Source: a virus. Taken from it: DNA of 32,905 nt. A program made the position numbers and the translations under genes. Below the pieces are notes generated by a model. That model ran no database searches. It had not been told where the DNA came from and saw nothing but the letters and a program-made list of their open reading frames with translations. Shown in pieces: positions 12,612 to 28,142 of this stretch (its first letter is position 1; every line of letters starts with the position of its first letter). The stretch is taken from IMG/VR virus record IMGVR_UViG_3300030090_003065, positions 1-32,905 of that record; one strand, written 5' to 3'.

Positions 12612-12626
12612 AACTAATAATTAGTT
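12612..12626. repeat. Dispersed palindrome copy 1 (AACTAATAATTAGTT)
   Basis: Perfect 15-bp inverted repeat with a single central A. It is the first of 22 copies found between here and 29917. Most copies sit between genes, either just after a promoter or directly after a stop codon, and just before a Shine-Dalgarno. As DNA it is a natural site for a dimeric regulator. As RNA it would form only a weak 5-bp hairpin. This copy lies in the non-coding control region 120 bp upstream of the first rightward promoter. Confidence 0.9.
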
Positions 12627-12738
12627 GGAAACTCTTGACATTGTCGGGCTAGAGTGTTGCGGGTGTCGGCTAATCCGGTTGGACATATCTTGACCTTGTC
12701 AACCTTTTATAGACATAAAAGAAATTTGCTGAGGGGTG

Positions 12739-12767
12739 TTGACGCTTGTTGCTGATCTTTATAGCTT
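12739..12767 (+). promoter_or_regulatory. Rightward promoter upstream of the 262-aa gene
   Basis: TTGACG, 17 bp, TAGCTT. It is preceded by GAGGGGTG, a run also found before other promoters of this family. It would give a leader of about 160 nt before the start codon at 12937. Confidence 0.6.
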
Positions 12768-12774
12768 ACCTTGT

Positions 12775-12936
12775 CGATTGGATACAGTGATTGCGGTCGC
12801 TGTCAGCAGACTCTCGAAACTGGCCAAGGTCCTGACGGGCTCCACTGGCGGGTATGATTCACGGGTAAGCGGAACCGTGGACGATTAAGATAGACCGCAA
12901 CTAATAATTAGTTAGGCGCACTGAGGCGCCACTATT
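12775..12936 (+). promoter_or_regulatory. Long structured leader of the 262-aa gene
   Basis: The leader contains a CACGG...CCGTG hairpin near 12859-12882, the palindrome at 12899, and GGCGC-actgag-GCGCC (12915-12930) ending seven bases before the ATG. The only Shine-Dalgarno-like bases (GAGG, 12923-12926) lie in the loop and stem of that last hairpin. This suggests translational control, possibly autoregulation. Confidence 0.45.
12899..12913. repeat. Dispersed palindrome copy 2 (AACTAATAATTAGTT)
   Basis: Perfect copy directly upstream of the hairpin that covers the ribosome-binding site of the 262-aa gene. Confidence 0.9.
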
Positions 12937-13725
12937 ATGAGCAACGGTAAGACTGGCGAGTCTAAACGCACAAGGAAGGGCGGAGCCAAGGCTCCGGTAG
13001 TAACCATGACCCAAGAGCAGTTTCAGGCTGCGATCTCTGAGGTCATGAGCAGAGGCGCGAAGACTGCTGAAACTGGCAAGCGTGCCGCTACCAAGGGCAA
13101 GCAAATTGCCAAGGATTTGTTTAGGGTCCTGAACGATGGCGTACAGGCTAAGCTGAGTGTTAAGGATGCTCACGAGGCCTGTATCAATCAGGCTCTGAAC
13201 GATGATACCGTGAGCGAGGAGGTGCGAGAATCTCGCGCCAACTATCTAGGCTCGCCGACTATGGCAGGGCACAAGATGTTTACGGCTCTGCATAACTACG
13301 GAAAGACCAAGGCAGTACGCGAGGAAATGGCTCGCATGGTCGCAGAGGATAAGATCTTTATCTCTGGTCCTAGAAGCATCGTGCAGTTTTGCGAGGACAT
13401 CCGTGACAACGTCGAGAACATTAAGACGACGACCGACGTTAGCAGAGCAGACTTTGAGGATCTTCTGGAGTCTCTACCTATCGGCGAGTCCGTCGATATT
13501 GTCGGCGACCTATTTCCTGATGAAGGTCCTGATGGCGTCGAGTCTCGCAATGCTCGCGAGTTCATGGCCACGCGCCTAACGGCGAGGGTCAAGCTTCAAG
13601 CTTGGCTCACGGCTCTGGATGAAATGGGAACTAGGGTCCACGAAAAGGCCAATCCCAAGGTGAAAAGCTACAAGCCACTGCCAACAATGGCAGAGTATGC
13701 TGAGGCGCGTGCTGCCAGTAGCTAA
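12937..13725 (+). CDS. Isolated gene of unknown function in the control region (262 aa)
   Basis: The ATG at 12937 opens a soluble, mostly helical protein with a basic Gly/Lys-rich N-terminus (SKRTRKGGAKAP), further basic helices (GKRAATKGKQIAKDLFRV near 47-64), and an acidic middle (GDLFPDEGPDGVES near 190-203). There is no signal, membrane segment or recognised domain. It has its own promoter, long leader and strong intrinsic terminator, unlike the genes around it, and lies between two minus-strand genes. That isolation suggests independent, perhaps high, expression. A DNA-binding or structural role would fit the basic N-terminus, but this is inference. Confidence 0.8.
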   Translation: MSNGKTGESKRTRKGGAKAPVVTMTQEQFQAAISEVMSRGAKTAETGKRAATKGKQIAKDLFRVLNDGVQAKLSVKDAHEACINQALNDDTVSEEVRESRANYLGSPTMAGHKMFTALHNYGKTKAVREEMARMVAEDKIFISGPRSIVQFCEDIRDNVENIKTTTDVSRADFEDLLESLPIGESVDIVGDLFPDEGPDGVESRNAREFMATRLTARVKLQAWLTALDEMGTRVHEKANPKVKSYKPLPTMAEYAEARAASS

Positions 13726-13743
13726 GCAGTAGCAGTACCCCAA

Positions 13744-13788
13744 GAGCGGGTCGACCCCTAACGGAGTCGGCCCGCTCTTTTTTTTTGT
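13744..13788 (+). terminator. Intrinsic terminator of the 262-aa gene
   Basis: GAGCGGGTCGAC pairs with GTCGGCCCGCTC (12 bp, one G-T wobble) around a 10-base loop, followed by nine T residues. It lies about 20 bases after the stop codon. Confidence 0.9.
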
Positions 13789-13792
13789 ACCT

Positions 13793-13807
13793 AACTAATT
13801 ATTAGTT
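13793..13807. repeat. Dispersed palindrome copy 3 (AACTAATTATTAGTT)
   Basis: Perfect copy immediately after the terminator; it forms the left border of the five-unit direct repeat array. Confidence 0.9.
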
Positions 13808-13815
13808 GGCCATAG

Positions 13816-13942
13816 GTAACCAAGAGGAGGGATCGAATAGGTAACCCGCAGGAGGGATCGATCAATAAGTAATCCAGAAGAGGGATCGAATAAGTAAATC
13901 AGAGGAGGGATCGACAGTAGGTAAATCATAGGAGGGATCGAC
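13816..13942 (+). repeat. Five iteron-like direct repeats (GTAA...AGGAGGGATCGA)
   Basis: Five units begin with GTAA at 13816, 13841, 13869, 13894 and 13921, a spacing of 25, 28, 25 and 27 bases. Each contains the core (G/A)GAGGGATCGA about ten bases in. The array is flanked on each side by a perfect copy of the 15-bp palindrome and lies just past the 3' end of the small terminase gene. Options are initiator-binding iterons, a packaging site bound by the small terminase, or an RNA with repeated GGA motifs. There is no open reading frame through the array. Confidence 0.8.
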
Positions 13943-13943
13943 C

Positions 13944-13958
13944 AACTAATTATTAGTT
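13944..13958. repeat. Dispersed palindrome copy 4 (AACTAATTATTAGTT)
   Basis: Perfect copy forming the right border of the direct repeat array. Confidence 0.9.
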
Positions 13959-14025
13959 GACTAGGTCTAGGATCTCGTATGCGAGGCTTCGAGAGGCCCT
14001 CTATGCTACCCTTTCTAGGCCTATA

Positions 14026-14457
14026 TCACGCCTCAGAAAAAAAGCCAGATAACCTATCCCGTAATTCCTTTTCGATTTCATCGGGGTTCCTATGCTCTAC
14101 CACTACGGTGGAAGACTCATCGAATACCCCTTCACTCTTACCTAGTAGTTCGAGTGCCCGTACCCGTGTGGATGGCGGATTGCTATCGTCCATCGCTTCA
14201 GACTTGAGGCGTTCGAGAATCCATTTAGCGTTTAGCTTTTCGTGGGTGCGCTTGGCTTCTTTTTTGTCAGCCTTCAGGTCATCGATAGCTTGGCGGACGT
14301 GGTTCTTTTTTGCGAGTCGTGACGCCAGTACGTTGACGGTCGCATCCTTGCCCTTGGTCTCATACGCTTTTTTGTAAGCGTCAGAATAGGACAAGCCGGA
14401 CGCCACAAATCCGGCGAATGCGCTCTGCTTAGGGGTTAGCCCTTTAGGTATAGTCAT
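14026..14457 (-). CDS. terS: Terminase small subunit (143 aa)
   Basis: Small terminases bind the packaging site and hand the DNA to the large subunit. The N-terminal half has the Terminase_2 pattern: GLTPKQSAFAGFVASGLSYS, then DAYKKAYETKG, then ASRLAKKNHVRQAIDDLKAD, a helix-turn-helix type DNA-binding domain. The C-terminal half is helical and charged, suited to ring assembly (LKSEAMDDSNPPSTRVRALE, LLGKSEGVFDES). It lies on the same strand as the large subunit but about 3 kb away, with the 262-aa gene and the direct repeats between them. Start ATG at 14457 with a weak GGGA Shine-Dalgarno. The nearby repeats are candidate binding sites. Confidence 0.85.
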   Translation of the reverse strand: MTIPKGLTPKQSAFAGFVASGLSYSDAYKKAYETKGKDATVNVLASRLAKKNHVRQAIDDLKADKKEAKRTHEKLNAKWILERLKSEAMDDSNPPSTRVRALELLGKSEGVFDESSTVVVEHRNPDEIEKELRDRLSGFFSEA

Positions 14458-14504
14458 ATCCCAAGATAAACGCTAAGACTTAGCCGTCAATATCTTGAAG
14501 AGTG

Positions 14505-14533
14505 TTGACACCTGTATTGACATCTCTTATATT
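14505..14533 (+). promoter_or_regulatory. Promoter before the 97-aa gene
   Basis: TTGACA, 17 bp, TATATT. A second TTGACA lies 12 bp after the first, a feature shared by the promoters at 15697 and 16533. The downstream part has the GTAGG motif common to this family. Confidence 0.7.
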
Positions 14534-14568
14534 AGTGCGTAGGTGTAGGGCTTGGGAGACACCAAGCC

Positions 14569-14583
14569 AACTAATAATTAGTT
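14569..14583. repeat. Dispersed palindrome copy 5 (AACTAATAATTAGTT)
   Basis: Perfect copy between the promoter at 14505 and the AAAAGGAG Shine-Dalgarno of the 97-aa gene. Confidence 0.9.
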
Positions 14584-14597
14584 AAAAGGAGAAAAAA

Positions 14598-14891
14598 ATG
14601 AGCAAATCACCCGCCGAAGAGCGATACTGGGCACTAGTGTCGCGGTTGGAGGAGGTCGAGGTTGAGGTCGAAGAACAGCGCGGACTACGCCGACACGACA
14701 TCTATCTCACAGACGGCGCTATTGATTGGGAGAACACCGCCGACAGCACGGATGCAGAAGGCAAGCCATTGGTCGAGGGTACTGACGCTTGGTGGCAAAT
14801 GATGTACGCACAAGCCGTGTCTATGGCCGGTGACGAAGCGAAAGAGCAGAACATTGATATCAACTCGTACTTCGCAAAACCGATCTACTAA
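14598..14891 (+). CDS. Accessory protein of unknown function (97 aa)
   Basis: First gene of the rightward accessory block. The ATG follows AAAAGGAGAAAAAA. The protein is acidic, with a Glu/Val-rich helix near residues 15-27 (LEEVEVEVEEQRG) and a Trp-containing second half (GTDAWWQMMYAQAVSMAG). It has no Cys pairs, signal or membrane segment. The stop codon lies within the next palindrome copy. No family recognised. Confidence 0.75.
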   Translation: MSKSPAEERYWALVSRLEEVEVEVEEQRGLRRHDIYLTDGAIDWENTADSTDAEGKPLVEGTDAWWQMMYAQAVSMAGDEAKEQNIDINSYFAKPIY

Positions 14892-14900
14892 TAATTAGTT
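14886..14900. repeat. Dispersed palindrome copy 6 (TACTAATAATTAGTT)
   Basis: One mismatch at the first base. The last codons of the 97-aa gene (TAC TAA) form its left arm, so the site and the stop codon overlap. Confidence 0.85.
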
Positions 14901-14907
14901 AAGTTGA

Positions 14908-14935
14908 CCCCCCTCTTGGTAACTCTTGAGGGGGG
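14908..14935. other. Strong C/G hairpin upstream of a promoter
   Basis: CCCCCCTC and GAGGGGGG form an 8-bp stem around a 12-base loop. GTTGAC flanks both arms (14903-14908 and 14935-14940), the right copy forming the -35 of the next promoter. No T-run follows, so it is either a weak terminator for the 97-aa gene or an operator over the -35 box. Confidence 0.5.
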
Positions 14936-14964
14936 TTGACGTTTGTATTGATATCTGTTAGCTT
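14936..14964 (+). promoter_or_regulatory. Promoter before the 85-aa gene
   Basis: TTGACG, 17 bp, TAGCTT. A second TTGATA lies 12 bp after the first hexamer start. Confidence 0.65.
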
Positions 14965-14996
14965 TAATATGTTAAAGAATGCCTAGTAACTAGCCC

Positions 14997-15011
14997 AACT
15001 AATAATTAGTT
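14997..15011. repeat. Dispersed palindrome copy 7 (AACTAATAATTAGTT)
   Basis: Perfect copy between promoter and Shine-Dalgarno of the 85-aa gene. Confidence 0.9.
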
Positions 15012-15034
15012 GGCTTCAAAAAAGGAAACGGATC

Positions 15035-15292
15035 ATGAAAACTTACAGACTCAGCAGTAACCCGCTCGTGTACACGCCGGGAATTCTGGTCTGGTGGCAG
15101 GGAATGGCTCAGGATGACATGGACCAAGCCATGCACCAGTTTGGCTCCGCGTTTCCTACCGTGCCCGAAGCGGTGCGGGAGGATGTATTGACGGGTGCGC
15201 TACCCGTAGAGGTTGAGGATGAAAGCGTGATCATAGCGGTGCCGGAAGATCATCGCTGTTGGAAAAATTGGGAATCCTTTAACCGGATGTAA
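15035..15292 (+). CDS. Accessory protein of unknown function (85 aa)
   Basis: The ATG at 15035 follows AAAAAAGGAAACGG. The protein starts MKTYRLSSNPLVYTPGILVW, has an acidic middle (VPEAVREDVLTGALPVEVED) and ends in an aromatic stretch (CWKNWESFNRM). It is a compact soluble protein with no known motif. It shares the promoter-palindrome-leader cassette with its neighbours. Confidence 0.75.
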   Translation: MKTYRLSSNPLVYTPGILVWWQGMAQDDMDQAMHQFGSAFPTVPEAVREDVLTGALPVEVEDESVIIAVPEDHRCWKNWESFNRM

Positions 15293-15295
15293 TCC

Positions 15296-15310
15296 AACTA
15301 ATAATTAGTT
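15296..15310. repeat. Dispersed palindrome copy 8 (AACTAATAATTAGTT)
   Basis: Perfect copy four bases after the stop of the 85-aa gene; no separate promoter precedes it. Confidence 0.9.
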
Positions 15311-15322
15311 GAAAGGGAGAAA

Positions 15323-15673
15323 ATGATGAAGACGACTTGGTGGACTCAGGCACGAAAGTTTATCGTGGTGTACGTTTGCAGGGAGCCGGATGAGAAAGCG
15401 CATTGGGCGCGACCGCACGCAAAAAAATTGCCGTGGCGTTACGTTGTTTTTGATGACTCTGAGATTAGTCTAGATATCATCGACCACATCAACAAGCATA
15501 TGGTCGATGGGAAGGGAGATGTCTTCAGGGTTGTGGGCACCTATGACACGCACGAGAGTGCTATTGATGGGGCTTGGGCTGACAATACCCTGCAACATCA
15601 ACAGGCTCGCGATGAGGCCGAGGCGCGTCTAGATGTGGGCCGATACATGGATGACAACTATGCATCGTGGTAG
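15323..15673 (+). CDS. Accessory protein of unknown function (116 aa)
   Basis: Two adjacent ATG codons at 15323 and 15326 follow AAAGGGAGAAA. The N-terminal half is basic and Trp-rich (TTWWTQARKFIVVYVCREPD, then KKLPWRYVVFDD). The second half is acidic with an Ala/Glu/Arg helix (QARDEAEARLDVGRYMDD). The beta-strand pattern followed by helices looks like a small alpha/beta fold. No family recognised. It is co-transcribed with the 85-aa gene. Confidence 0.75.
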   Translation: MMKTTWWTQARKFIVVYVCREPDEKAHWARPHAKKLPWRYVVFDDSEISLDIIDHINKHMVDGKGDVFRVVGTYDTHESAIDGAWADNTLQHQQARDEAEARLDVGRYMDDNYASW

Positions 15674-15696
15674 CCTTGTCGGATAGTTGATGGGTG

Positions 15697-15725
15697 TTGA
15701 CAAACATCTTGACATCTATTAGCTT
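15697..15725 (+). promoter_or_regulatory. Promoter directly upstream of the tmRNA-like RNA
   Basis: TTGACA, 17 bp, TAGCTT. The same segment also holds a second TTGACA (15709-15714) with TAGGAT (15733-15738) 18 bp later, whose start site would fall at about 15746, exactly the first G of the RNA's acceptor stem. Confidence 0.7.
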
Positions 15726-15745
15726 TAGTGTGTAGGATGAAGTAC

Positions 15746-15825
15746 GGGGGTGAGAACAGGTTTCGACATCTCGAAGGACCCGCAAGGGTACGGGATGGAC
15801 CTCGGTTCGAGTCCGAGCACCTCCA
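15746..15825 (+). ncRNA. tmRNA-like RNA with tRNA-like domain but no messenger part (about 80 nt)
   Basis: tmRNA frees stalled ribosomes by acting as alanyl-tRNA and then as a short message. Here the tRNA-like parts are complete. Acceptor stem GGGGGTG (15746-15752) pairs with CACCTCC (15818-15824), with a wobble at the third pair (G3-U70), and A15825 is the discriminator; both are alanine identity elements. CAGGTTTCGACAT matches the conserved D-loop segment of tmRNA. CATCTCG (15767-15773) pairs with CGGGATG (15791-15797) like helix P2 and is capped by ACCC-GCAA-GGGT. GGAC precedes a perfect T-arm (CTCGG, TTCGAGT, CCGAG). There is no anticodon arm, tag reading frame or pseudoknot. CCA is not encoded (CTA follows). 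The structure is seen; charging and function are inferred. Confidence 0.8.
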
Positions 15826-15838
15826 CTAATAATTAGTT
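15824..15838. repeat. Dispersed palindrome copy 9 (CACTAATAATTAGTT)
   Basis: One mismatch at the first base. It begins on the last base of the acceptor stem, so the 3' end of the tmRNA-like RNA and the palindrome touch. Confidence 0.85.
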
Positions 15839-15859
15839 CACCGCCAAAAAGGAGGCCTC

Positions 15860-16114
15860 ATGGCTTGGCGTAGAGATGTAGGGATGTATGTCGATCTCTT
15901 TAGTGAGATCAAAAGAGAACACTTGACCGTGTGGCTGAAGGCTAGACAAGCCAACAGCGTAAACTCAGCGTACTGGGCGTTGAAGCACGCGCTACCGGAC
16001 GCGCATATACCGCGCCCTGCCGTACGATTGAAGGCGCATCAAGAAAAGTTTCTCAGCACCACAGGGCAGTACACCTTGGGTTGTTCGGACCCAAGGGATC
16101 TTTCACACAACTAA
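15860..16114 (+). CDS. Accessory protein of unknown function (84 aa)
   Basis: The ATG follows AAAAAGGAGGCCTC. The protein is basic and helical in the first half (VDLFSEIKREHLTVWLKARQ) with a Trp/Ala helix (VNSAYWALKHALPDAHIPRP), and ends in a polar segment. It lies directly downstream of the tmRNA-like RNA and is probably on the same transcript, which makes a functional link with that RNA worth testing. No domain recognised. Confidence 0.75.
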   Translation: MAWRRDVGMYVDLFSEIKREHLTVWLKARQANSVNSAYWALKHALPDAHIPRPAVRLKAHQEKFLSTTGQYTLGCSDPRDLSHN

Positions 16115-16123
16115 TAATTAGTT
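16109..16123. repeat. Dispersed palindrome copy 10 (AACTAATAATTAGTT)
   Basis: Perfect copy; the stop codon of the 84-aa gene (AAC TAA) forms its left arm. Confidence 0.9.
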
Positions 16124-16138
16124 GAAAGGAAAAGAACC

Positions 16139-16519
16139 ATGAACCATACAGTACAGTATTGGGTTGGTTGGGTTAGTGGGCGCAATAGCAAGCCCAGTCC
16201 GGTCCACCGACCCGTCACCATTGATGTCGGGGACGGTGATCGTCCGAACGGTGTACGCATCACACTACCGAACGGACTAACAACGTCAATCCAGTGGGGA
16301 ACGGGCAATTACTGCTCTCGTAGGGGTCACGCGATGGCATATGAGGACCACTATGATGCAGCGGGTTCCGTTGACGCTGAGGTCGCAATCTGGAACAAAG
16401 ATGATGAGTGGTATCGTCTATCGGAACATCGCGAAGTTATCGGATGGCAGAGTGTTGCCGAGGTTGAAAAGCTGTTGGATAAAGCCAGTCTGGATATAAA
16501 TTTCGCTCCCCGCTGTTAA
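16139..16519 (+). CDS. Accessory protein of unknown function (126 aa)
   Basis: The ATG follows GAAAGGAAAAGAACC. The sequence is beta-rich at the start (MNHTVQYWVGWVSG, then GVRITLPNGLTTSIQWGTGN) and acidic later, with DDEWYRLSEHREVIGWQSVA near the end. There is no signal or membrane segment. No family recognised. It shares the palindrome leader with its neighbours and ends just before the next promoter. Confidence 0.75.
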   Translation: MNHTVQYWVGWVSGRNSKPSPVHRPVTIDVGDGDRPNGVRITLPNGLTTSIQWGTGNYCSRRGHAMAYEDHYDAAGSVDAEVAIWNKDDEWYRLSEHREVIGWQSVAEVEKLLDKASLDINFAPRC

Positions 16520-16532
16520 TGGTTGAGGGGTG

Positions 16533-16561
16533 TTGACATATATGTTGACATTCATTAGCTT
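16533..16561 (+). promoter_or_regulatory. Promoter before the zinc-ribbon gene
   Basis: TTGACA, 17 bp, TAGCTT, nearly identical to the promoter at 15697, including the inner TTGACA and the downstream TAGTGTGTAGGATGAA. Confidence 0.7.
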
Positions 16562-16583
16562 TAGTGTGTAGGATGAAACGCAT

Positions 16584-16598
16584 CACTAATTATTAGTT
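16584..16598. repeat. Dispersed palindrome copy 11 (CACTAATTATTAGTT)
   Basis: One mismatch at the first base; followed by GACTAAAAAAAGGAAA, the typical leader. Confidence 0.85.
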
Positions 16599-16620
16599 GA
16601 CTAAAAAAAGGAAAACCATC

Positions 16621-16821
16621 ATGGCCGGAACAATTAGTACCGAGCAAGTCATCGACGCTTACGAACGCTCAACGTATGGGCTAGAGAATATTGGAATCTG
16701 CACCGCTTGCGGTTATGAGCAAGACGGGTGTGAGCCTGACGCTGAAAACTATGAGTGCGAAGATTGTGGAGAGCGCAAGGTGCAGGGCACCATGAATTTG
16801 TTAATCGGAATTGCGTTCTAG
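16621..16821 (+). CDS. Zinc-ribbon protein (66 aa)
   Basis: I use the ATG at 16621, after AAAAAAAGGAAAACC; an upstream start would include the leader. The middle has two CxxC knuckles, ICTACGYEQDG and CEDCGE, separated by CEPDAENYE, which is a compact zinc ribbon. Similar short phage proteins with a Cys-Thr-x-Cys-Gly and Glu-Pro-Asp-Ala pattern are known to me only as hypothetical. It may bind nucleic acid or a host protein. Confidence 0.8.
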   Translation: MAGTISTEQVIDAYERSTYGLENIGICTACGYEQDGCEPDAENYECEDCGERKVQGTMNLLIGIAF

Positions 16822-16824
16822 CAT

Positions 16825-16839
16825 CACTAATTATTAGTT
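16825..16839. repeat. Dispersed palindrome copy 12 (CACTAATTATTAGTT)
   Basis: One mismatch at the first base, four bases after the zinc-ribbon stop codon. Confidence 0.85.
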
Positions 16840-16861
16840 GACCCAAAAGGGAGGGAACAAC

Positions 16862-17680
16862 GTGGAACACTTGTTCACGAAAACAGGACGGGCACGATAC
16901 AATTCGGTGGTGGCCTATGAAGGGCCATCTCGAATCGATGGCAAGCCAATTGTGGTATTTGTTACAGGGCTTCGAGCCTCTAACAATTCCAAGACTGGCA
17001 ATATGGTTCAGTCTCACATTGTCCGGTCGGACATGAGCCCGATGGAAGCGCTCAAGACTGGCGGTGATGCGTCGATTTGTGGTGCGTGTCCATTGCGCCC
17101 ACAAGGGTACGATGGCGTAAAGTACTGGGACCGTGGGTGTTACGTTAATGCCGGTCAGGCACCCCTTGCGCTCTATCGGGCATATGTAGCGGGTAACATT
17201 CCCAAGGTAACGCCATCCGAATTGTCGGCTCTGACTACGGGTAGGATGACTAGGCTTGGTAGCTACGGTGATCCGGCGGCGGTGCCCATGTGGGTATGGG
17301 AGGCGTTCACCCGCTACGCCAAGGGTCATACAGGATACACACACCAATGGCGTAGCCCTAAGCTAAGGGATGTCTTGAAGTGGTGTCAGGTGTCGGCAGA
17401 CTCGCCCGAGGATGCTATATCGGCCCGTCGTGCGGGTGTGGGTAGCTTCCGGGTCACGAGACCGAACGAAGAGGTGATGTCTTTCGAGACTGTGTGTCCT
17501 GCATCGGAAGAGGCCGGACGGGTGGCAACGTGTCAGGATTGCGGTATGTGCTCAGGCCTAGACGGTGCGTCGGTAGTGATCGCTCCGCATGGCATCGGTA
17601 AGGGTAGCGTTCGCAAGAACAATCGTAGGGCCGTGGATCTCCCCGTGTTGAATGAGGCACGGGCCGAGGCTCACAACTAA
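16862..17680 (+). CDS. Conserved Cys-rich phage protein (272 aa)
   Basis: Translation starts at the GTG at 16862, six bases after AAAAGGGAGGG. Recognisable pieces are GNMVQSHIVRSDMSPMEALK, then DASICGACPLRP, RGCYVNAGQAPL, then RLGSYGDPAAVPMWVW, TGYTHQW, FRVTRPNEEVM, CPASEEAG and CQDCGMCSGLD. This pattern defines a family common in phages and without an assigned function to my knowledge. Eight or more Cys in CxxC-type pairs suggest zinc or an iron-sulfur cluster. It is the longest gene of the accessory block and its stop codon lies in the next palindrome. Confidence 0.85.
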   Translation: MEHLFTKTGRARYNSVVAYEGPSRIDGKPIVVFVTGLRASNNSKTGNMVQSHIVRSDMSPMEALKTGGDASICGACPLRPQGYDGVKYWDRGCYVNAGQAPLALYRAYVAGNIPKVTPSELSALTTGRMTRLGSYGDPAAVPMWVWEAFTRYAKGHTGYTHQWRSPKLRDVLKWCQVSADSPEDAISARRAGVGSFRVTRPNEEVMSFETVCPASEEAGRVATCQDCGMCSGLDGASVVIAPHGIGKGSVRKNNRRAVDLPVLNEARAEAHN

Positions 17681-17689
17681 TTATTAGTT
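17675..17689. repeat. Dispersed palindrome copy 13 (AACTAATTATTAGTT)
   Basis: Perfect copy; the last codon and stop (AAC TAA) of the 272-aa gene form its left arm. Confidence 0.9.
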
Positions 17690-17710
17690 GACTTAAAAAA
17701 GGAAAGTAAA

Positions 17711-17881
17711 ATGCTTAACGCCGGAAAAGTAAAAAAGATAAGGGGGCCGTTCGGCATCAGGCTGATCATCGCCCCTCGCGAAGCGGTTCCACACATAGGC
17801 AGGTTCGGAGCAAGGAGGACACCGCTTATGGGTGGTTACGTTCGCAGAGTTGGACGCCTATTGATTCTTTCGAGTCATTAA
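17711..17881 (+). CDS. Small basic protein (56 aa)
   Basis: This short frame starts at an ATG after TTAAAAAAGGAAAGTAAA, the same leader as its neighbours, which is the main argument that it is real. It reads MLNAGKVKKIRGPFGIRLII, continues to a basic middle (GRFGARRTP) and ends VGRLLILSSH. Arg, Lys and Gly dominate. No family recognised; it could bind nucleic acid. Confidence 0.65.
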   Translation: MLNAGKVKKIRGPFGIRLIIAPREAVPHIGRFGARRTPLMGGYVRRVGRLLILSSH

Positions 17882-17903
17882 ACAATGTGATAGTTGATGG
17901 GGG

Positions 17904-17931
17904 TTGACACCATATTGATTCCTATTAGCTT
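17904..17931 (+). promoter_or_regulatory. Promoter before the 128-aa gene
   Basis: TTGACA, 16 bp, TAGCTT, followed by TTGGTATGTAGGATG as in the other family members. Confidence 0.65.
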
Positions 17932-17953
17932 TGGTATGTAGGATGCAGTGCTT

Positions 17954-17968
17954 CACTAATTATTAGTT
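17954..17968. repeat. Dispersed palindrome copy 14 (CACTAATTATTAGTT)
   Basis: One mismatch at the first base; followed by GACTTAAAAAAGGAAA. Confidence 0.85.
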
Positions 17969-17989
17969 GACTTAAAAAAGGAAAGAGGC

Positions 17990-18376
17990 ATGGCCAAGGT
18001 TACTTTCACGAAGCTCGACAACGGCGGAATGTGGGATGAGCCAAAGAATCAAGAGATTTACGTTGACGGGGTTTGGCTTGGGACCATCTCGCAAGAATTG
18101 GGCACGCTGTACGAGGAGTTATTCGTAATTGGATACAGTGTGGATCTATTTGGCTGCGAAGCCTTAGAGGATGAGTCTTTTAGTCTACGAGTAAGGGGTG
18201 TGTTTGTGAGAGGGAATTACCAACTCAACCGCCAACCGCCAAAAGGTTCTGCTAGGAAATTACACACAGACGCTAAGAACAGAGTGCGCGAGATCGTCGC
18301 AAACTTCGAGGGCCTCGACGAGTGGCTCGCCAGCGAGCGCAAGCTCATCGCAGACAGGGAGGTGGCAAGACCTTAA
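17990..18376 (+). CDS. Accessory protein of unknown function (128 aa)
   Basis: The ATG follows TTAAAAAAGGAAAGAGGC. The first half looks like a beta sheet (MAKVTFTKLDNGGMW, EIYVDGVWLGTISQE, VIGYSVDLFG), the second half is basic then helical (QPPKGSARKLHTDAKNRVRE, LDEWLASERKLIADRE). It ends about 20 bases before the next promoter. No family recognised. Confidence 0.75.
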   Translation: MAKVTFTKLDNGGMWDEPKNQEIYVDGVWLGTISQELGTLYEELFVIGYSVDLFGCEALEDESFSLRVRGVFVRGNYQLNRQPPKGSARKLHTDAKNRVREIVANFEGLDEWLASERKLIADREVARP

Positions 18377-18396
18377 AGGATGGTGATTGACAGGGG

Positions 18397-18425
18397 TTGA
18401 CACTATGTTGATCCTTAACTAATTA
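18397..18425 (+). promoter_or_regulatory. Promoter whose -10 overlaps the palindrome
   Basis: TTGACA, 17 bp, then TAATTA, which is the centre of the palindrome at 18417. Here the palindrome replaces the usual TAGCTT box, so a protein on the palindrome would compete directly with RNA polymerase. Confidence 0.5.
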
Positions 18426-18431
18426 TTAGTT
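18417..18431. repeat. Dispersed palindrome copy 15 (AACTAATTATTAGTT)
   Basis: Perfect copy overlapping the predicted -10 position of the promoter at 18397. Confidence 0.9.
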
Positions 18432-18453
18432 GACTTCAAAAAGGAAACGAAAA

Positions 18454-18849
18454 ATGAGAAGAGATCAGGAAATCAACGTGGCGGGGCCATCCACGATAAA
18501 CTTCGGCGTGGATGCCATGGCACTATGGGAGGCGGTGCTAGAGGCAGTTAATCACAGGGGCTTTGAGCGCGACGGGAACGCTGTCTGGATAAGTGCCAGC
18601 GTTACAACCCTTATATCCGATTGGATCGATAAGGACTCAAGACATGTACAAGAGTCGCTTTGCCATCTCATTCCAAACGCGAGACGGCTACATAGAACCC
18701 ACTCAATCTTCTATACTGATCAATCTTGGGACGTTGGCTTTTGCCCTTGGTTCATCGAACACGCTATTGACTGGACAGACATTACAATCAAGACCAAGTA
18801 CATAGACCTTATCGTGGAACAATACAACAGGGAGCAGAGCGATGGCTAA
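18454..18849 (+). CDS. Accessory protein of unknown function (131 aa)
   Basis: I start at the ATG at 18454, after CTTCAAAAAGGAAACGAAAA; upstream in-frame codons belong to the leader. The protein is mixed alpha/beta with a Trp-containing middle (GNAVWISASVTTLISDWIDK) and aromatic C-terminal half (DVGFCPWFIEHAIDWTDITI). No known motif. Its stop overlaps the start of the next gene by eight bases, so the two are probably coupled. Confidence 0.75.
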   Translation: MRRDQEINVAGPSTINFGVDAMALWEAVLEAVNHRGFERDGNAVWISASVTTLISDWIDKDSRHVQESLCHLIPNARRLHRTHSIFYTDQSWDVGFCPWFIEHAIDWTDITIKTKYIDLIVEQYNREQSDG

Positions 18850-19054
18850 GTTTACAGTTGAGGTTGTAACAAAAAATTACTGGACAGTGGAAGTTGAAGC
18901 TGACGACGAGCATATGGCAAACGACTTGGCGTGTGATATATGCCAAGTAGAACTCAGGGCTGTCAACGAAAAACTAAAGCTTCCTACTTTAAAATATATA
19001 GACAGTGAGTGGGAGTTTTATCCAAGTCTTACAAAGGAGAGCAACGATGGCTAA
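18842..19054 (+). CDS. Small paired accessory protein A (70 aa)
   Basis: It begins MAKFTVEVVTKNYWTVEVEA, closely matching the start of the next gene (MAKHTVKIIETHVWTVVVDA), so the two are tandem duplicates that have since diverged. A Cys pair lies in LACDICQVE and the C-terminus is acidic. The start follows GGGAGCAGAGCG inside the previous gene. Small beta-strand-first proteins of this type have no assigned role that I know. Confidence 0.72.
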   Translation: MAKFTVEVVTKNYWTVEVEADDEHMANDLACDICQVELRAVNEKLKLPTLKYIDSEWEFYPSLTKESNDG

Positions 19055-19352
19055 ACATACAGTGAAGATCATTGAGACCCATGTGTGGACAGTGGTAGTG
19101 GATGCTCCGACGCCCGAGGATGCCGAGGAGGCGGTGATGCAGAAGTTTGCTCATATCACCCTTAGCTATCCCGAAAACCCTGACACGGTTTACGAGAAGA
19201 TTGAGGAGAACGTCCCTCACGCTATATCGGCGGGGCTTCGTCCCCTAGTGTCCGAGGAGTCTCAACACTGGGAAGAGGTAGGGCTTGTCAAAGAGATCTC
19301 CGAGTCGTTGCAGTTCGGAGGCAGTGAACGAGAGTATGAACAAGCTAAGTAA
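19047..19352 (+). CDS. Small paired accessory protein B (101 aa)
   Basis: The ATG at 19047 follows AAAGGAGAGCAACG and overlaps the end of its paralog by eight bases. After the shared N-terminal strands, the sequence has an Ala/Glu-rich helix (PTPEDAEEAVMQKFAHI) and an acidic second half not present in the paralog. The stop codon lies at the foot of the long RNA stem that follows. Confidence 0.75.
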   Translation: MAKHTVKIIETHVWTVVVDAPTPEDAEEAVMQKFAHITLSYPENPDTVYEKIEENVPHAISAGLRPLVSEESQHWEEVGLVKEISESLQFGGSEREYEQAK

Positions 19353-19467
19353 AGCTTACGGTCTGTGATTATGGACGGAGAGAACAGGTGCGTCCAGCCC
19401 TGCGAAGTTAGGATCGCTTCGCAGTTTAAAGTAACAAGAAAACCCGTAATCACAGATTGTAAAGCTT
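19352..19467 (+). ncRNA. Candidate structured RNA, three-way junction (about 116 nt)
   Basis: A long outer stem closes the element: 19352-19372 pairs with 19446-19467 (about 20 bp with two G-T pairs and one bulged A, including TCTGTGATTA with TAATCACAGA). Inside it are two hairpins: GGACG/CGTCC (19373-19377, 19391-19395) and CTGCGAAG/CTTCGCAG (19400-19407, 19417-19424). A single-stranded A-rich run follows (19425-19443). No T-run follows, so it is not a simple terminator. Whether it is an independent RNA or a cis element of the surrounding genes is open. Confidence 0.65.
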
Positions 19468-19481
19468 ACTAATTATTAGTT
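19467..19481. repeat. Dispersed palindrome copy 16 (TACTAATTATTAGTT)
   Basis: One mismatch at the first base; directly abuts the 3' strand of the structured RNA stem. Confidence 0.85.
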
Positions 19482-19503
19482 GACTAAAAAAAAGGAGAGA
19501 GAC

Positions 19504-19752
19504 ATGGCGGGTACAATTGACTGCCTTGCATTCATGCAAAGCTCAACCGCAAGGCGTATGGGATACTTGAAAAGCCAGTATCTGGGGCCTAACAACACTG
19601 ACGACTGGCTGTCAGGTATGACAATAGAGCACAGGCTACCACAGACTGCGCGTCACGCACTAGCCAAGTATGTGCCGAGTGACGCTGAGATGAAAGCAAT
19701 TAGAAAGTTACGCATAGCTAAATACCCTAACAGGCAGAATCACAATGACTAA
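19504..19752 (+). CDS. Accessory protein of unknown function (82 aa)
   Basis: The ATG at 19504 follows AAAAAAAAGGAGAGAGAC. The protein is basic with a Met/Ser-rich start (MAGTIDCLAFMQSSTARRMG) and helical C-terminal half (RHALAKYVPSDAEMKAIRKL). Its stop overlaps the next start by eight bases. It lies directly downstream of the structured RNA and palindrome. No family recognised. Confidence 0.75.
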   Translation: MAGTIDCLAFMQSSTARRMGYLKSQYLGPNNTDDWLSGMTIEHRLPQTARHALAKYVPSDAEMKAIRKLRIAKYPNRQNHND

Positions 19753-19972
19753 GTCACGCCAAGAAATTCGTTCAGCGTCCATACGCTTGGACCAAGACAT
19801 CCTAGAAGTAAAAGAACAAATCCACGAACTAAACGAACTACTAATGACAGTCGATAAGTGGGACGTTCTGGACGCCAGATACGCCAACAGGGCCGAGGTC
19901 TACGATGAGAAACTAAGTAAACAGGAACTACTAGAAGAGCTTTTTGAAAGAAGGGACAGTAACAATGGCTAA
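19745..19972 (+). CDS. Coiled-coil accessory protein (75 aa)
   Basis: Nearly the whole protein is a charged helix with heptad-like Leu/Ile spacing (IRLDQDILEVKEQIHELNEL, then LLMTVDKWDVLDARYANRAE, KQELLEELFERRDS). It probably forms a coiled-coil dimer or binds a helical partner. The overlap with the previous stop suggests translational coupling. Confidence 0.72.
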   Translation: MTKSRQEIRSASIRLDQDILEVKEQIHELNELLMTVDKWDVLDARYANRAEVYDEKLSKQELLEELFERRDSNNG

Positions 19973-20009
19973 TCGTAAACCGCAACGGGTTCACTGTCAG
20001 GGTAACTAA
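19965..20009 (+). CDS. Possible very short peptide (14 aa)
   Basis: ATG at 19965 within the end of the previous gene encodes MANRKPQRVHCQGN. Only its position and basic composition support it; it may be a decayed gene start. Confidence 0.2.
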   Translation: MANRKPQRVHCQGN

Positions 20010-20018
20010 ATATTAATC

Positions 20019-20033
20019 AACTAATAATTAGTT
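20019..20033. repeat. Dispersed palindrome copy 17 (AACTAATAATTAGTT)
   Basis: Perfect copy before the Trp-rich gene; the only central-A copy to the right of 16.5 kb. Confidence 0.9.
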
Positions 20034-20058
20034 AACCCAAAAACAAAGGAGCATAAAC

Positions 20059-20670
20059 ATGGACATAAAAGACTTAACTGATACTTCAAGCTTAGGTAAG
20101 CGCATCTTGAGAGTAGCAAACGAGGTTCGCGAGCTAGAAGAGTTAGAGAAAAAAGACCCCGACTTTGAGTGGAGGAAGCGTTTCTACAAGGAGGAGCAAC
20201 TGAGACAGCTTATCCATGTTGCAGACTTAGGGAACGCTAACCTTCGTGTTGTTGATGCAGGGTTCATGGCGGTGGCAAAATTATTCTTCAAGGTTATGTG
20301 CATGAGGATTGAGTTTCGCGTCAAGCGGAGGCTCTGGCTCTTGTGGCACGGCAGGTTGCCGTATCTGTTTTCAGAACGGCACTATTGCTACCCAGAGTCC
20401 AGACCGTGGTGGCACATATGCTGTAATGGTGATGCCGGTGGATGGCGCCTGACGGTGTGCGACTGGCTAGAGTACAGGTGGCGGCACCTTGAGCACGTTC
20501 TTTATGAGGATCACGGCCTGAGCTTCCGCAACACCAACGAACTAAAAACAATTGCAAAGCGCTTCGATAGGTGGGGCTATTGGTTCGGAGGATACAAGTT
20601 TACATGGGTTCACTTAACATCTGACGCGGTAGAGGAGACTTCTTTGGACCGCGAGTGGGACACCCAATGA
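20059..20670 (+). CDS. Trp-rich protein of unknown function (203 aa)
   Basis: The ATG follows AAACAAAGGAGCATAAAC. After a helical charged N-terminus (about 1-60), the protein has a basic aromatic core (EFRVKRRLWLLWHGRLPYLF near 95-114) and many Trp residues (RPWWHICCNGDAGGWRLTVC, DWLEYRWRHLE, RWGYWFGGYKFTWVHL). A membrane segment is possible near 66-83 (MAVAKLFFKVM) but not strong. Its stop overlaps the start of the lipoprotein transglycosylase (ATGA). The coupling and aromatic content suggest a role at the cell envelope, which is inference. Confidence 0.7.
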   Translation: MDIKDLTDTSSLGKRILRVANEVRELEELEKKDPDFEWRKRFYKEEQLRQLIHVADLGNANLRVVDAGFMAVAKLFFKVMCMRIEFRVKRRLWLLWHGRLPYLFSERHYCYPESRPWWHICCNGDAGGWRLTVCDWLEYRWRHLEHVLYEDHGLSFRNTNELKTIAKRFDRWGYWFGGYKFTWVHLTSDAVEETSLDREWDTQ

Positions 20671-21203
20671 TGAAAAAAATAATTTTCTACGTTCTAATTT
20701 TTCTGGCGGGCTGTACTGATCCTGACATTCCCGTCGTGGAGATAACGCCCGTCTATGCAGAGCCTGATCCTATCGCACTGTTCTTGGGCCAGACTCGTTG
20801 GCCGTGTTCGAGTGATGGGTGTGCAGACGGCGAGGCTATCGACAGGATAGCGAACAGCATATGGGCTGCAAGCGAAAAGCATGACCTGTCTGTGCCGTTG
20901 CTTGTCGGTGTGCTGATGGTGGAGAACCCTTGGCTTGATACAACGGCGGTGAGTTACGCCGGAGCTATGGGCTTGTACCAAGTCATGCCACTCCACGAAG
21001 ACGAGTGGGGTTGCGAGGGCACCATGCAGAGCGTAGACGGCTCTGTATGCAGGGGTGCCTCTGTGCTGTCGGACATGATGCAAAGGTATGGCAACGAGCG
21101 CGATGCTTTGCTTGGATACAATGGATGCCGGAGCACCGGATGCCAGAGCTATCATGGCAAGGTTGTCGCAAGATCAGAGCAGTTCTCAGGACTCGACAGT
21201 TAG
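20667..21203 (+). CDS. Lipoprotein lytic transglycosylase (178 aa)
   Basis: Lytic transglycosylases cleave the glycan strands of peptidoglycan. MMKKIIFYVLIFLAGC is a lipoprotein signal with Cys16 as the modified residue, so the mature enzyme should be anchored to a membrane of a Gram-negative cell. The SLT pattern follows: SEKHDLSVPLLVGVLMVENP with catalytic-type E86, then VSYAGAMGLYQVMP (96-109) and LLGYNGC near 153. The rest is Cys-containing (C47, C52 and a C-terminal Cys pair), perhaps disulfide-linked. It could be the lysis enzyme, or modify the wall early in infection. Start at 20667 overlaps the previous stop; 20670 is also possible. Confidence 0.82.
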   Translation: MMKKIIFYVLIFLAGCTDPDIPVVEITPVYAEPDPIALFLGQTRWPCSSDGCADGEAIDRIANSIWAASEKHDLSVPLLVGVLMVENPWLDTTAVSYAGAMGLYQVMPLHEDEWGCEGTMQSVDGSVCRGASVLSDMMQRYGNERDALLGYNGCRSTGCQSYHGKVVARSEQFSGLDS

Positions 21204-21212
21204 TGAGGGGAG

Positions 21213-21240
21213 TTGACATAAATTTTACTTCAATTATCTT
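21213..21240 (+). promoter_or_regulatory. Promoter before the AAA+/VWA module
   Basis: TTGACA, 16 bp, TATCTT, followed by TATGTAGG. It lies right after the transglycosylase stop, so the three-gene module has its own start. Confidence 0.65.
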
Positions 21241-21260
21241 TATGTAGGTTCAGTAAACCG

Positions 21261-21275
21261 AACTAATTATTAGTT
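21261..21275. repeat. Dispersed palindrome copy 18 (AACTAATTATTAGTT)
   Basis: Perfect copy between promoter and Shine-Dalgarno of the AAA+ gene. Confidence 0.9.
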
Positions 21276-21293
21276 CACAAAAAGGAGAGCGTG

Positions 21294-22511
21294 ATGACAC
21301 GCATTGAGACACGACCGGACATTCCTCCGGCAGTAAGCGTCAAGCAGTACATCGACATCTTAAAGAGGGTTCTCTGGCCCGTACGATCCAAGCTGATGGG
21401 CTTGGTGCTAGGACCGCCGGGACAGGGCAAGACTCAGGCTACCGAGCAGTTTTCGGTACAGCAAGCCGAGCGATCTAATAGACGTTGGGTCAACATCCGT
21501 CACGGCAGAGCGCAGGACGGTGACCACATCTTCTTGCGGGTCAACTGTTCAGGCATGGCTCGTGAGGACTTCTTTATGCCATGGCTAAACCAGTCGGCGC
21601 AGTCGTTTCAAATGTACATCGTTGAAACGCTGAAGTACCTTGCCGAGTTGGACGACATTGAGGGAGTCATCTTGTTTGATGAGGCACCGAAGAACATTGA
21701 CCTGAATGCGATCTATGCAGAGATCGGACACGAGCGAACCCTTGGTTGGAACTGGTCGCTCCATTCTGGGATCTTGATTGTTATGACAGGCAACAGGGTT
21801 GAGGACAATGCCGGTGCTTACGAGATGACCGCTGACGTTCAGGACAGATCGCTAGTACTGAATGTCTTGGGCACCGCGCAGGACTTTGTTGACCACATGG
21901 GGACTCGCTTGAGCCCTCTGTTCAGCACGGCCTGTCTGTTCTTCCCCGAGAAAGAGTTGTTTGATTTCGGCTCACCTCCATCGTTGCCAAGCCAGACCAA
22001 CTCCTTTCGGTCAACCGAGGTGCTCAACGAGATCGTTGCCATCAAGGATTGGACAGCAGAGAACGGCGAGGTTGTCAAAGGTTGGAACTGGAGCGAGGGT
22101 CACCTGCGAACAGCGGGTGCAGGTGTCGTCGGTCGCACCGCCTTTCAAACCTTCTCTGCGACACAAGGGTTTGAGGGTGATATGTCGGTGGTGATACCAC
22201 TACTCGAAGACCCTAGTGGCAACGCCGATGAGATACGAAACATATTCATAGAGGACTCCATGAATATGCGTAAGGCACTTGAGGACTTCAAGTTCGCGGC
22301 GATGGCCCTCATGGTTGGCAGGGTTGTTGAAGACGGTCTAACCAAGGACCAGAGACGCACCGCTTGGTCAAATGCACATGAGTTCATGTCAATCATCTGC
22401 GACAATGAGATGACTGAAACCTTCCAGAGGATGGTTTTCCTGACGCACCCCGAACTCAAGAACACTGCCGAAGCCGGTGTCCACCGAGCCGGTGTTGGCG
22501 ACAACTACTAA
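21294..22511 (+). CDS. MoxR-type AAA+ ATPase (405 aa)
   Basis: MoxR ATPases act as chaperone-like remodelers, typically with a VWA-domain partner encoded beside them. Walker A is GPPGQGKT (40-47), Walker B is GVILFDEAPK (124-133) and sensor 1 lies in GILIVMTGN (159-167). A DRSLVLNVLG segment follows near the arginine-finger side. The C-terminal third is helical and less conserved. The ATG at 21294 lies six bases after AAAGGAG; a GTG one codon earlier is possible. The next two genes, including a VWA protein, support the MoxR reading. Target and step in infection are unknown. Confidence 0.8.
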   Translation: MTRIETRPDIPPAVSVKQYIDILKRVLWPVRSKLMGLVLGPPGQGKTQATEQFSVQQAERSNRRWVNIRHGRAQDGDHIFLRVNCSGMAREDFFMPWLNQSAQSFQMYIVETLKYLAELDDIEGVILFDEAPKNIDLNAIYAEIGHERTLGWNWSLHSGILIVMTGNRVEDNAGAYEMTADVQDRSLVLNVLGTAQDFVDHMGTRLSPLFSTACLFFPEKELFDFGSPPSLPSQTNSFRSTEVLNEIVAIKDWTAENGEVVKGWNWSEGHLRTAGAGVVGRTAFQTFSATQGFEGDMSVVIPLLEDPSGNADEIRNIFIEDSMNMRKALEDFKFAAMALMVGRVVEDGLTKDQRRTAWSNAHEFMSIICDNEMTETFQRMVFLTHPELKNTAEAGVHRAGVGDNY

Positions 22512-22520
22512 TTATTAGTT
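22506..22520. repeat. Dispersed palindrome copy 19 (TACTAATTATTAGTT)
   Basis: One mismatch at the first base; the TAC TAA end of the AAA+ gene forms the left arm. Confidence 0.85.
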
Positions 22521-22532
22521 AAGGAGGATTTT

Positions 22533-23579
22533 ATGAAGACCAGCATTTCCGATGAGCAGTGGGGCGAGATCCTTGAGCGCCATGCTGACGGCCACATCTT
22601 CGTGGCTCACTCATCAACCGTGTGGCAGAACAAGGGAAGCGACAAGACGTTGCGTGAGCAGATGATTGCTTCGGGGGCTGACCCCAAGCGAGCAAACGTC
22701 ACGTTCACACGCATGGAGAACCAGTACACCACCCGCTTCAACAAGGCTAGGCGTCAGGCCAAGGAGATCTTAGAGGAGAAGGGGATGGCGTGGTCTACCA
22801 AGAAGCGCGGCGAGGCGCGTAACAGCAACAACGTTGGTGGCTTCTTGATACGGATTGAAGACTGGCGCGAGATCAGTGAACAGATACAGAAAGCTTTCGA
22901 GGCTTGGGAGACCGCCATAATGCAAGACGTTATTCAGCGGTACCCTGACCACGTTAGGGATGGCATGAGAGCTTATCGGGCACTGACTAAGGGTCAGTAC
23001 GAAATGTCTGAGGCCCAACTGGCCAAGCACTACCCGCCAGTAGATGAAGTGCGTGCCAAGTTTACTTGGGATGTCTACAAGGAGGGCGTCAACACTGACA
23101 CGCCGAGCCACGAGCAACTCAAGGGAGAGCACAGCGAGTTGTTCCGTTCGATTGCCGAGGACGCCGTCGAGCGACAGAAGCAAGGCGTATGCAATGTCAT
23201 CGAAGACTTGGTTGGTGATGTCATGGCCTTAGCTGACAAGCAGTCGAACATGATTCGGCAGTACGATCCTGACACAGAAAACCAACGTGACGGCAACACC
23301 CTCCCGTACAAGAACGATTGGGAGAAGCTACCTCAGATGGCAAAGAAGTTGGAAGATTGGGAGAGAAGTTTTTACGGGGGCACTGGCCCCATGGCTGATC
23401 TTGCCGGAGAGGTACGATCACTGCACAAGCGTCTAACCAATATGTCGGGAGACGACATGGGCGAGATGCGCGGGATACTTGGCGGCGAGGATAGCTCCGC
23501 AAGAGACGAGGTGTCGGAACGACTTGATGATCTTGGTGACACCGCCTCGTCAGTGTTGGGCAAGATGCTACTGTCTTAA
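22533..23579 (+). CDS. Middle protein of the AAA+/VWA module (348 aa)
   Basis: The ATG follows AAGGAGGATTTT. The protein is helical and charged, with a basic N-terminal region (FTRMENQYTTRFNKARRQAK near 58-77) and an acidic C-terminal third (MGEMRGILGGEDSSARDEVS). It has no membrane segment or recognised domain. Its position between the ATPase and the VWA gene suggests an adaptor or the substrate-recognition part of the complex. That assignment rests on gene order alone. Confidence 0.78.
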   Translation: MKTSISDEQWGEILERHADGHIFVAHSSTVWQNKGSDKTLREQMIASGADPKRANVTFTRMENQYTTRFNKARRQAKEILEEKGMAWSTKKRGEARNSNNVGGFLIRIEDWREISEQIQKAFEAWETAIMQDVIQRYPDHVRDGMRAYRALTKGQYEMSEAQLAKHYPPVDEVRAKFTWDVYKEGVNTDTPSHEQLKGEHSELFRSIAEDAVERQKQGVCNVIEDLVGDVMALADKQSNMIRQYDPDTENQRDGNTLPYKNDWEKLPQMAKKLEDWERSFYGGTGPMADLAGEVRSLHKRLTNMSGDDMGEMRGILGGEDSSARDEVSERLDDLGDTASSVLGKMLLS

Positions 23580-23601
23580 ATAAAAAAAACAAGGAGGAAT
23601 T

Positions 23602-24993: not shown

Positions 24994-25002
24994 TTATTAG
25001 TT
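24988..25002. repeat. Dispersed palindrome copy 20 (ATCTAATTATTAGTT)
   Basis: Two mismatches in the left arm, where the last codon and stop (ATC TAA) of the VWA gene lie; leader GACTTAAAAAGGAGAA follows. Confidence 0.75.
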
Positions 25003-25023
25003 GACTTAAAAAGGAGAAGGACC

Positions 25024-25227
25024 ATGAGTATTGCCAATCAGGATCACAGCTTTCACAAGATCCTTGAACTAATGGAGGAGGCGGCAGACGAGCACGGCAC
25101 TCAGGTAGTTTATGTAGATGATTGTGACGGCATAAACTCAGAAGCGCCTCAGTTCTACGAAAAATTTATAATAGATAGTTACGGAAGATTTATGATTCCG
25201 GTAACGATAAACGGCGAGGAGTGGTGA
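25024..25227 (+). CDS. Accessory protein of unknown function (67 aa)
   Basis: The ATG follows AAAAAGGAGAAGGACC. The sequence is acidic with a helical start (FHKILELMEEAADEHGTQVV) and a beta-like C-terminal half (YEKFIIDSYGRFMIPVTING). It is the first of three short genes between the VWA gene and the zinc-ribbon gene. No family recognised. Confidence 0.72.
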   Translation: MSIANQDHSFHKILELMEEAADEHGTQVVYVDDCDGINSEAPQFYEKFIIDSYGRFMIPVTINGEEW

Positions 25228-25228
25228 C

Positions 25229-25609
25229 ATGAGCAAGGGCAATCTTGATACCGGACAGCCACTGCTAGAGCGAATCAGTGATGCGCTTGAGAATCTGGCA
25301 GACGATGCATCCACGATCCTTAATGAAGGAATGGCAGAGGTCAACTGGACCGCAATGGACGATCACGCAGGGGAGGCGGTTGACGCCGTAAACTTCTTGG
25401 ATCAATGGGCGGCTCACGCACAACAGTCGGTGTCGTCCCTGACAGAGGCTCTTATAAAGTTTCAAGACAGAGAGGCATGGTACCGAATGCATCCCGCAGA
25501 CCGGGCCTTGATACGATCAGCCTTGATCGATTTAAATTCTATATCCTTATGGACTAGGCCAAGAGAGCCTGAGTCCCCACTTTGTTTATGTAGGGAAGTT
25601 AATGAGTAG
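25229..25609 (+). CDS. Accessory protein of unknown function (126 aa)
   Basis: The ATG lies one base after the previous stop, preceded by GGCGAGGAGTGG. The protein is helical and acidic (ISDALENLADDASTILNEGM, HAQQSVSSLTEALIKFQDRE), without Cys pairs except at the extreme C-terminus (PLCLCREVNE). It overlaps the next gene by eight bases. No family recognised. Confidence 0.72.
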   Translation: MSKGNLDTGQPLLERISDALENLADDASTILNEGMAEVNWTAMDDHAGEAVDAVNFLDQWAAHAQQSVSSLTEALIKFQDREAWYRMHPADRALIRSALIDLNSISLWTRPREPESPLCLCREVNE

Positions 25610-25829: not shown

Positions 25830-25858
25830 TGGGTTAACCCAAAAAACAGAGGTGTACA

Positions 25859-26264: not shown

Positions 26265-26282
26265 TGCTATAAAGGAGAAAGA

Positions 26283-28125: not shown

Positions 28126-28142
28126 CCTTCGTCGCGCCTTAG

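Follow-up and report, generated by a model that had tools for sequence, protein, structure and literature searches.

The bacterial one-piece transfer-messenger RNA (tmRNA; Rfam family RF00023) is an RNA of about 360 nt, in which a tRNA-like domain (TLD) comprising an acceptor stem, a D-loop, the start of the P2 helix, a GGAC link, and a T-arm is combined with a messenger region containing a resume codon and a tag frame, and with pseudoknots. The G3-U70 pair in the acceptor stem directs charging with alanine. On the stalled ribosome, EF-Tu binds the TLD, SmpB takes the place of an anticodon arm, and the nascent chain is transferred to the alanine of the TLD ahead of any use of the message part (PMC8012679, PMC8363625); a ribosome-bound structure is also available for a truncated tmRNA in complex with SmpB and EF-Tu (PMC8363625; PMC8012679). 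Complete and two-piece tmRNA (ssrA) genes are encoded by phages such as the cluster C mycobacteriophages, Kumao, Melnitz, and Cellulophaga phage Calle_1, which keep the messenger in one or two pieces, and tmRNAs lacking the coding sequence (CDS) for a tag occur in mitochondria and in Mallomonadaceae plastids (about 65 bp in the plastid; PMC11915505). Moreover, mycobacteriophage DS6A is listed as having a 'TLD only' tmRNA in PMC4131195 (Mao et al. 2009, as cited there and in PMC11915505), and strong inhibition of tmRNA by a TLD-only RNA, perhaps via titration of SmpB, is reported in PMC4131195 and PMC11915505. Here we describe an 80-nt element at positions 15746–15825 (+ strand; hereafter designated the mini-tmRNA) of the IMG/VR virus record IMGVR_UViG_3300030090_003065, which was analyzed as a whole over its 32,905 bases (hereafter designated the window). 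An Rfam match, homologs, and covariation give strong support to the assignment of this element as a phage tmRNA of which only the TLD is left.

The mini-tmRNA shares with the bacterial tmRNA all the parts of the TLD, including G3-U70, and differs from it in size and in the lack of messenger, tag frame, resume codon, and pseudoknots. It resembles the CDS-less organellar tmRNAs in having no tag frame, and the plastid form also in size, whereas those RNAs serve the organelle's own machinery and not that of an invader (PMC11915505). As listed, the DS6A RNA is likewise phage-encoded and little more than a TLD, but it belongs to another phage, and the present set extends the form to many further phages and lineages. 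Thus, a message-less phage tmRNA has already been published, contrary to a preceding sequence-only reading of the window, which knew of no such form, and the RNA described here belongs to a known, barely studied kind.

The RF00023 match covers 15746–15828 over model positions 1–374 with 59.5 bits (E 4.8e-21), exceeding the curated gathering threshold of 47 bits, and our own covariance model R1 gives the element a score of 81.1 bits. A stretch of 302 model positions is collapsed to 9 nt; the messenger region with its resume codon, tag frame, and stop is not present in the 80 nt, which also leave no room for the absent pseudoknots PK1–PK4. No other tmRNA, permuted-tmRNA, or two-piece match was found in the window even at E ≤ 5, and the order of the 5′ segment followed by the 3′ segment is unlike that of permuted tmRNA genes (RF04321, RF01849–RF01851). 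Both the TLD parts claimed in the sequence-only reading and the claimed loss of the remainder were borne out by these results, with each part being located on the + strand. The 5′ strand of the acceptor stem (GGGGGTG, 15746–15752), containing G3, pairs with 15818–15824 in the 3′ strand (CACCTCC, containing U70), which with A73 at 15825 spans 15818–15825; CCA is not encoded, the bases following A73 being CTA. The D region AGAACAGGT-TTCGAC (15753–15767), with the D-loop CAGGTTTCGAC of the tmRNA type, contains the residues that correspond to U17 and G19 of E. coli, which are SmpB contacts. The P2 helix is formed by CATCTCG (15767–15773) and CGGGATG (15791–15797), a pairing indicated by the fold and the homologs; the 17 nt between the two strands are folded mostly into an apical hairpin, ACCC-GCAA-GGGT (15778–15789), which occupies the place of the messenger and pseudoknots, that is, the collapsed Rfam region. 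A GGAC linker (15797–15800, sharing its first G with P2), identified from the sequence and the Rfam alignment, leads to the T-arm CTCGG-TTCGAGT-CCGAG (15801–15817) with a 5-bp T-stem, of which 99.3% of the cells are paired in the homologs. The folding energy of the element is unremarkable (z −1.2), and it is the covariance model and the homologs that support the structure; ARAGORN gives no call at this position.

A sigma-70-type promoter, TTGACA-18-TAGGAT (15709–15738, + strand; 10 of 12 matches), precedes the element and is the sole promoter-like site in the region 15500–16200, although about 0.8 such sites are expected by chance in 700 nt. Its predicted +1, at about 15746, coincides with the first base of the element, in agreement with the position at a promoter start noted in the sequence-only reading, and the mature 5′ end may therefore need no processing. 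The DNA upstream of the element is the same in two relatives (L003 and L068).

Selection on the RNA was evident from an alignment of 54 homologous elements fitted to a covariance model built from 15 sequences of similar layout; a MAFFT alignment of the full set had misplaced the 5′ acceptor strand, and the set was realigned to the covariance model. Standard pairs occupied 96.8% of the paired cells as compared with 68.9% in shuffles, and the covariation score of 0.719 (0.170 in shuffles) was reached by none of 500 shuffles. The fit of the alignment to the model favors pairing somewhat, but the pairs of the acceptor and T-stem are set directly by the fixed spacing. The pairing signal collapsed in controls with slid partners. 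Changes on both sides were found in 13 of 19 pairs, and covariation was present in all three helices (acceptor, P2, and T), with compensatory changes in 6 of 7 P2 pairs and 4 of 5 T-stem pairs; the compensatory changes sought in relatives do exist. G3-U70 was conserved in all 54 aligned elements and, among the matches listed from a scan in which neither position 70 nor any of the 5′ acceptor strand was constrained, in 113 of 113 accepted elements, where acceptance was decided by overall stem pairing without requiring the 3-70 pair itself; one candidate (L102) failed this stem-pairing test. Acceptor pairs 5-68 and 6-67 vary freely, and in Streptomyces phages LuckySocke and GiJojo the 4-69 pair is U-A while 3-70 remains G-U. 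Since GGAC and the greater part of the T-loop were fixed in the searches, as was GGGG or TTCGAC in some of the scans, the conservation of these motifs is not independent evidence. Judged from the sequences, the alanine determinants G3-U70 and A73 are under strict selection; neither a passive remnant nor an RNA that simply soaks up SmpB would be expected to maintain a chargeable end with such strictness.

The D-loop that contacts SmpB is also maintained. Where TTCGAC was not demanded, variants such as ATCGAC, CTCGAC, TTTGAC, and TTAGAC were found, in which the equivalents of U17 and G19 are kept; exceptions were few (TTCTAC, and matches resembling tRNAs or the 3′ ends of full tmRNAs), and in a mixed set of 142 elements, GAC was kept in 136. 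The G19 residue of tmRNA is packed against SmpB, and replacing it with C stops the binding (PMC8363625). A search of 49 viral records, many of which are fragments, revealed no SmpB gene, and the host SmpB would therefore be the partner.

Mini-tmRNAs proved widespread among viruses. A TLD pattern that did not include positions 70 and 73 found matches in 74 viral contigs; when two longer forms and a copy from a bacterial metagenome-assembled genome (MAG) are added, the total is 55 distinct true elements, each of which has G3-U70 and A73. Two wider pattern scans matched at least 119 and at least 120 viral contigs, the true number being larger, and the pooled scans gave at least 141 distinct mini-tmRNAs in about 47 groups at a similarity ratio of 0.8. 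The same pattern yielded only three matches in 257 Gb of bacterial and archaeal genomes: one true element (L076), lying on a 14-kb contig of an Acidimicrobiales MAG and adjoining a gene that matches phage head proteins, and two chance matches (L077 and L078) with stems that fail to pair. This copy was also the only true match of the R1 model in 396 actinobacterial genomes, eight weak matches being the 3′ ends of full host tmRNAs. The RF00023 threshold was exceeded in 48 of 50 scanned records, and six cultured phages carry an unannotated copy above it, namely, Streptomyces phages Shaeky, LuckySocke, GiJojo, pSt2308, and BRock and Stenotrophomonas phage Jojan60; a seventh, Alone3, has a weaker, likewise unannotated mini-tmRNA. 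A wider family of TLD-only phage tmRNAs was not found described in a literature search covering few subscription papers, and what appears to be new is the breadth of the message-less form, its almost exclusive occurrence in viruses, and its invariant alanine determinant.

The elements sit in intergenic gaps, mostly in the same direction as their neighbors. A large group is located between the terminase and portal genes, and others are found close to genes for exonuclease, helicase, capsid, or tail proteins or within tRNA clusters; no conserved partner gene emerged from the neighborhood comparison. In Microbacterium phages Kaijohn and Loca, which are related to the terminase-portal group, a gap exists at the equivalent place but contains no mini-tmRNA. 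The size also varies: the shortest forms (L113, L121, L168, and similar ones) are 63–66 nt long with P2 closed by a short loop, indicating that the apical motif is not essential, and two longer forms (L079, 113 nt; L080, 109 nt) are intermediate between mini and full size. A P2-loop motif, AAR(N)CC...GG (15774–15790 in the window), occurred in 82 of 141 elements among the matches listed, as compared with 2.6% of shuffled loops, and may reflect shared ancestry.

From the sequence, we infer all that goes beyond a folded RNA with intact alanine and SmpB determinants. The alanine charging, SmpB binding, and competition suggested in the sequence-only reading would be consistent with what is conserved. 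The RNA has the entry half of the tmRNA equipment without the message half, and it should therefore enter the pathway and then halt or divert it. We favor, as moderately probable, the reading that a phage-encoded, message-less tmRNA that is alanylated and binds SmpB antagonizes host trans-translation. The RNA would be transcribed from its own promoter and trimmed at the 3′ end, after which the host would add CCA and charge it with alanine. The charged RNA would bind host SmpB and EF-Tu and enter ribosomes stalled on broken mRNA, displacing the host tmRNA from this role. With no tag frame, the stalled chain would stay untagged and the ribosome would not be released normally, so that SmpB and the A sites of stalled ribosomes would be occupied and host trans-translation would be antagonized during infection. 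This reading is preferred because the entry equipment occurs without a message and because inhibition by a TLD-only RNA has been reported. Two points weigh against it: the features pointing to a step after charging fit a productive rescue as well, and, since many viral records are fragments, a missing SmpB gene or second piece is not proof.

Its main rival is a rescue without tagging, in which the charged RNA with SmpB takes over the stalled chain and ejects the broken mRNA, and other factors recycle the ribosome, so that phage proteins escape the degradation tag. The same conserved alanine and SmpB features agree with such a rescue, and mitochondrial tmRNAs without a tag frame are conserved alongside a mitochondrion-targeted SmpB, which the source reads as continued help with incomplete mRNAs (PMC11915505). 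We nevertheless consider it unlikely, since no known step releases the chain from a message-less TLD and the single reported effect of a TLD-only RNA in E. coli is inhibition. It is improbable that the RNA is an alanine donor, that is, a non-decoding, tRNA-like substrate of alanyl-tRNA synthetase for non-ribosomal use. Aminoacyl-tRNA-dependent ligases exist, and the strict alanine identity combined with the lack of an anticodon would suit such a role, but the tmRNA-type D-loop would then be superfluous, yet it persists even in elements found by scans that did not require it, and the elements have no shared partner gene beside them. Even more doubtful is a 5′ leader or processing element serving mainly to regulate or mature the downstream mRNA: the element of the window does follow a promoter and precede a repeated leader palindrome and an open reading frame (ORF), whereas across lineages the downstream genes vary, the element is often found in tRNA clusters, and the alanine determinants would be superfluous.

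Half of a two-piece (permuted) tmRNA with its message elsewhere has precedents in phages, for example Melnitz (PMC9004378), and several cultured phages carry permuted genes. In the window, however, the TLD halves are contiguous, P2 is closed by its own hairpin, and there is no match to a permuted gene or coding piece; moreover, the RF00023 scan of 50 records revealed no full-length partner in a viral record. The sequence-only reading had allowed for a messenger part as a second piece elsewhere, but none was found within what could be searched, and we regard this explanation as highly improbable. Least probable of all is a passive remnant (an attachment site, a decaying captured host gene, or a chance fold), because an attachment site needs only the 3′ segment, one large group lies between terminase and portal genes, and the covariation in all three helices with an invariant G3-U70 across many elements implies purifying selection on the RNA. 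In favor of a remnant, tmRNA genes are common integration sites (PMC11915505).

Annotation has largely passed over these RNAs, as ARAGORN either overlooks the mini-tmRNA or fuses unrelated upstream sequence to it, and two records carry protein genes over the RNA. The 'tmRNA' calls of ARAGORN in L005, L014, L059, and L068 took remote upstream sequence as the 5′ half; in L005, which was inspected, the compact element fits better. The protein genes called over a mini-tmRNA, GiJojo gp44 (L235) and Jojan60 UPU15879.1 (L237), are probable misannotations. Permuted (two-piece) tmRNA genes were also missing from the annotation of phages CcrSC, Rb1, DLP_6, RpAliso, PA_L9, and S-CRM01 (L084, L086, L087, L089, L239, and L240). 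In the crAss-like phage cr50_1 (L091), a RAGATH-22 RNA (155.6 bits, 868–1034) lies a few hundred bases from an annotated tmRNA.

The window encodes a portal and a terminase as well as a DNA primase/helicase, an exonuclease, a single-strand annealing protein, and an HNH protein, and no direct terminal repeat was found in it. Its terminase is nearest to those of Pelagibacter phages HTVC027P and HTVC023P (55–57% identity), phage DSL-LC04, and cyanophages; the element is absent from the terminase relatives tested (HTVC027P, HTVC023P, 023Pt_psg01, DSL-LC04, and MinM2). The mini-tmRNA is flanked on the same strand by an upstream ORF of 116 aa (15323–15673) with no PHROG or Pfam match and a downstream ORF of 84 aa (15860–16114) with no Pfam match, the latter of which probably follows the RNA within a single transcription unit. 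Directly 3′ of the RNA (15824–15838, no strand assigned) lies a 15-bp palindrome (consensus AACTAATWATTAGTT) that has 22 copies spread over 12613–29915 of the window, mostly between a stop codon and the following ribosome-binding site. Several copies are located just downstream of TTGACA/TAGGAT-like promoters, and the central base varies between copies in blocks; the palindromes are possibly operators or processing sites.

As a tentative extension, for which our confidence is lower than for the antagonism itself, phages of many lineages may share an RNA weapon against ribosome rescue, namely, an alanine-charged, SmpB-bound tRNA mimic that would block tagging upon entry into stalled ribosomes, possibly as a counter-defense against the cutting of mRNA by the host during infection. 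If this is true, the mini-tmRNA would join the small number of phage-made inhibitors that consist of RNA and would have escaped notice because it is not picked up by gene finders, and the six cultured phages named above, from Shaeky to Jojan60, open the question to direct testing. Blocking or rerouting trans-translation would then be a recurrent phage strategy carried out by an RNA of 80 nt, which would represent a natural, evolutionarily tuned inhibitor of a pathway present in nearly all bacteria.
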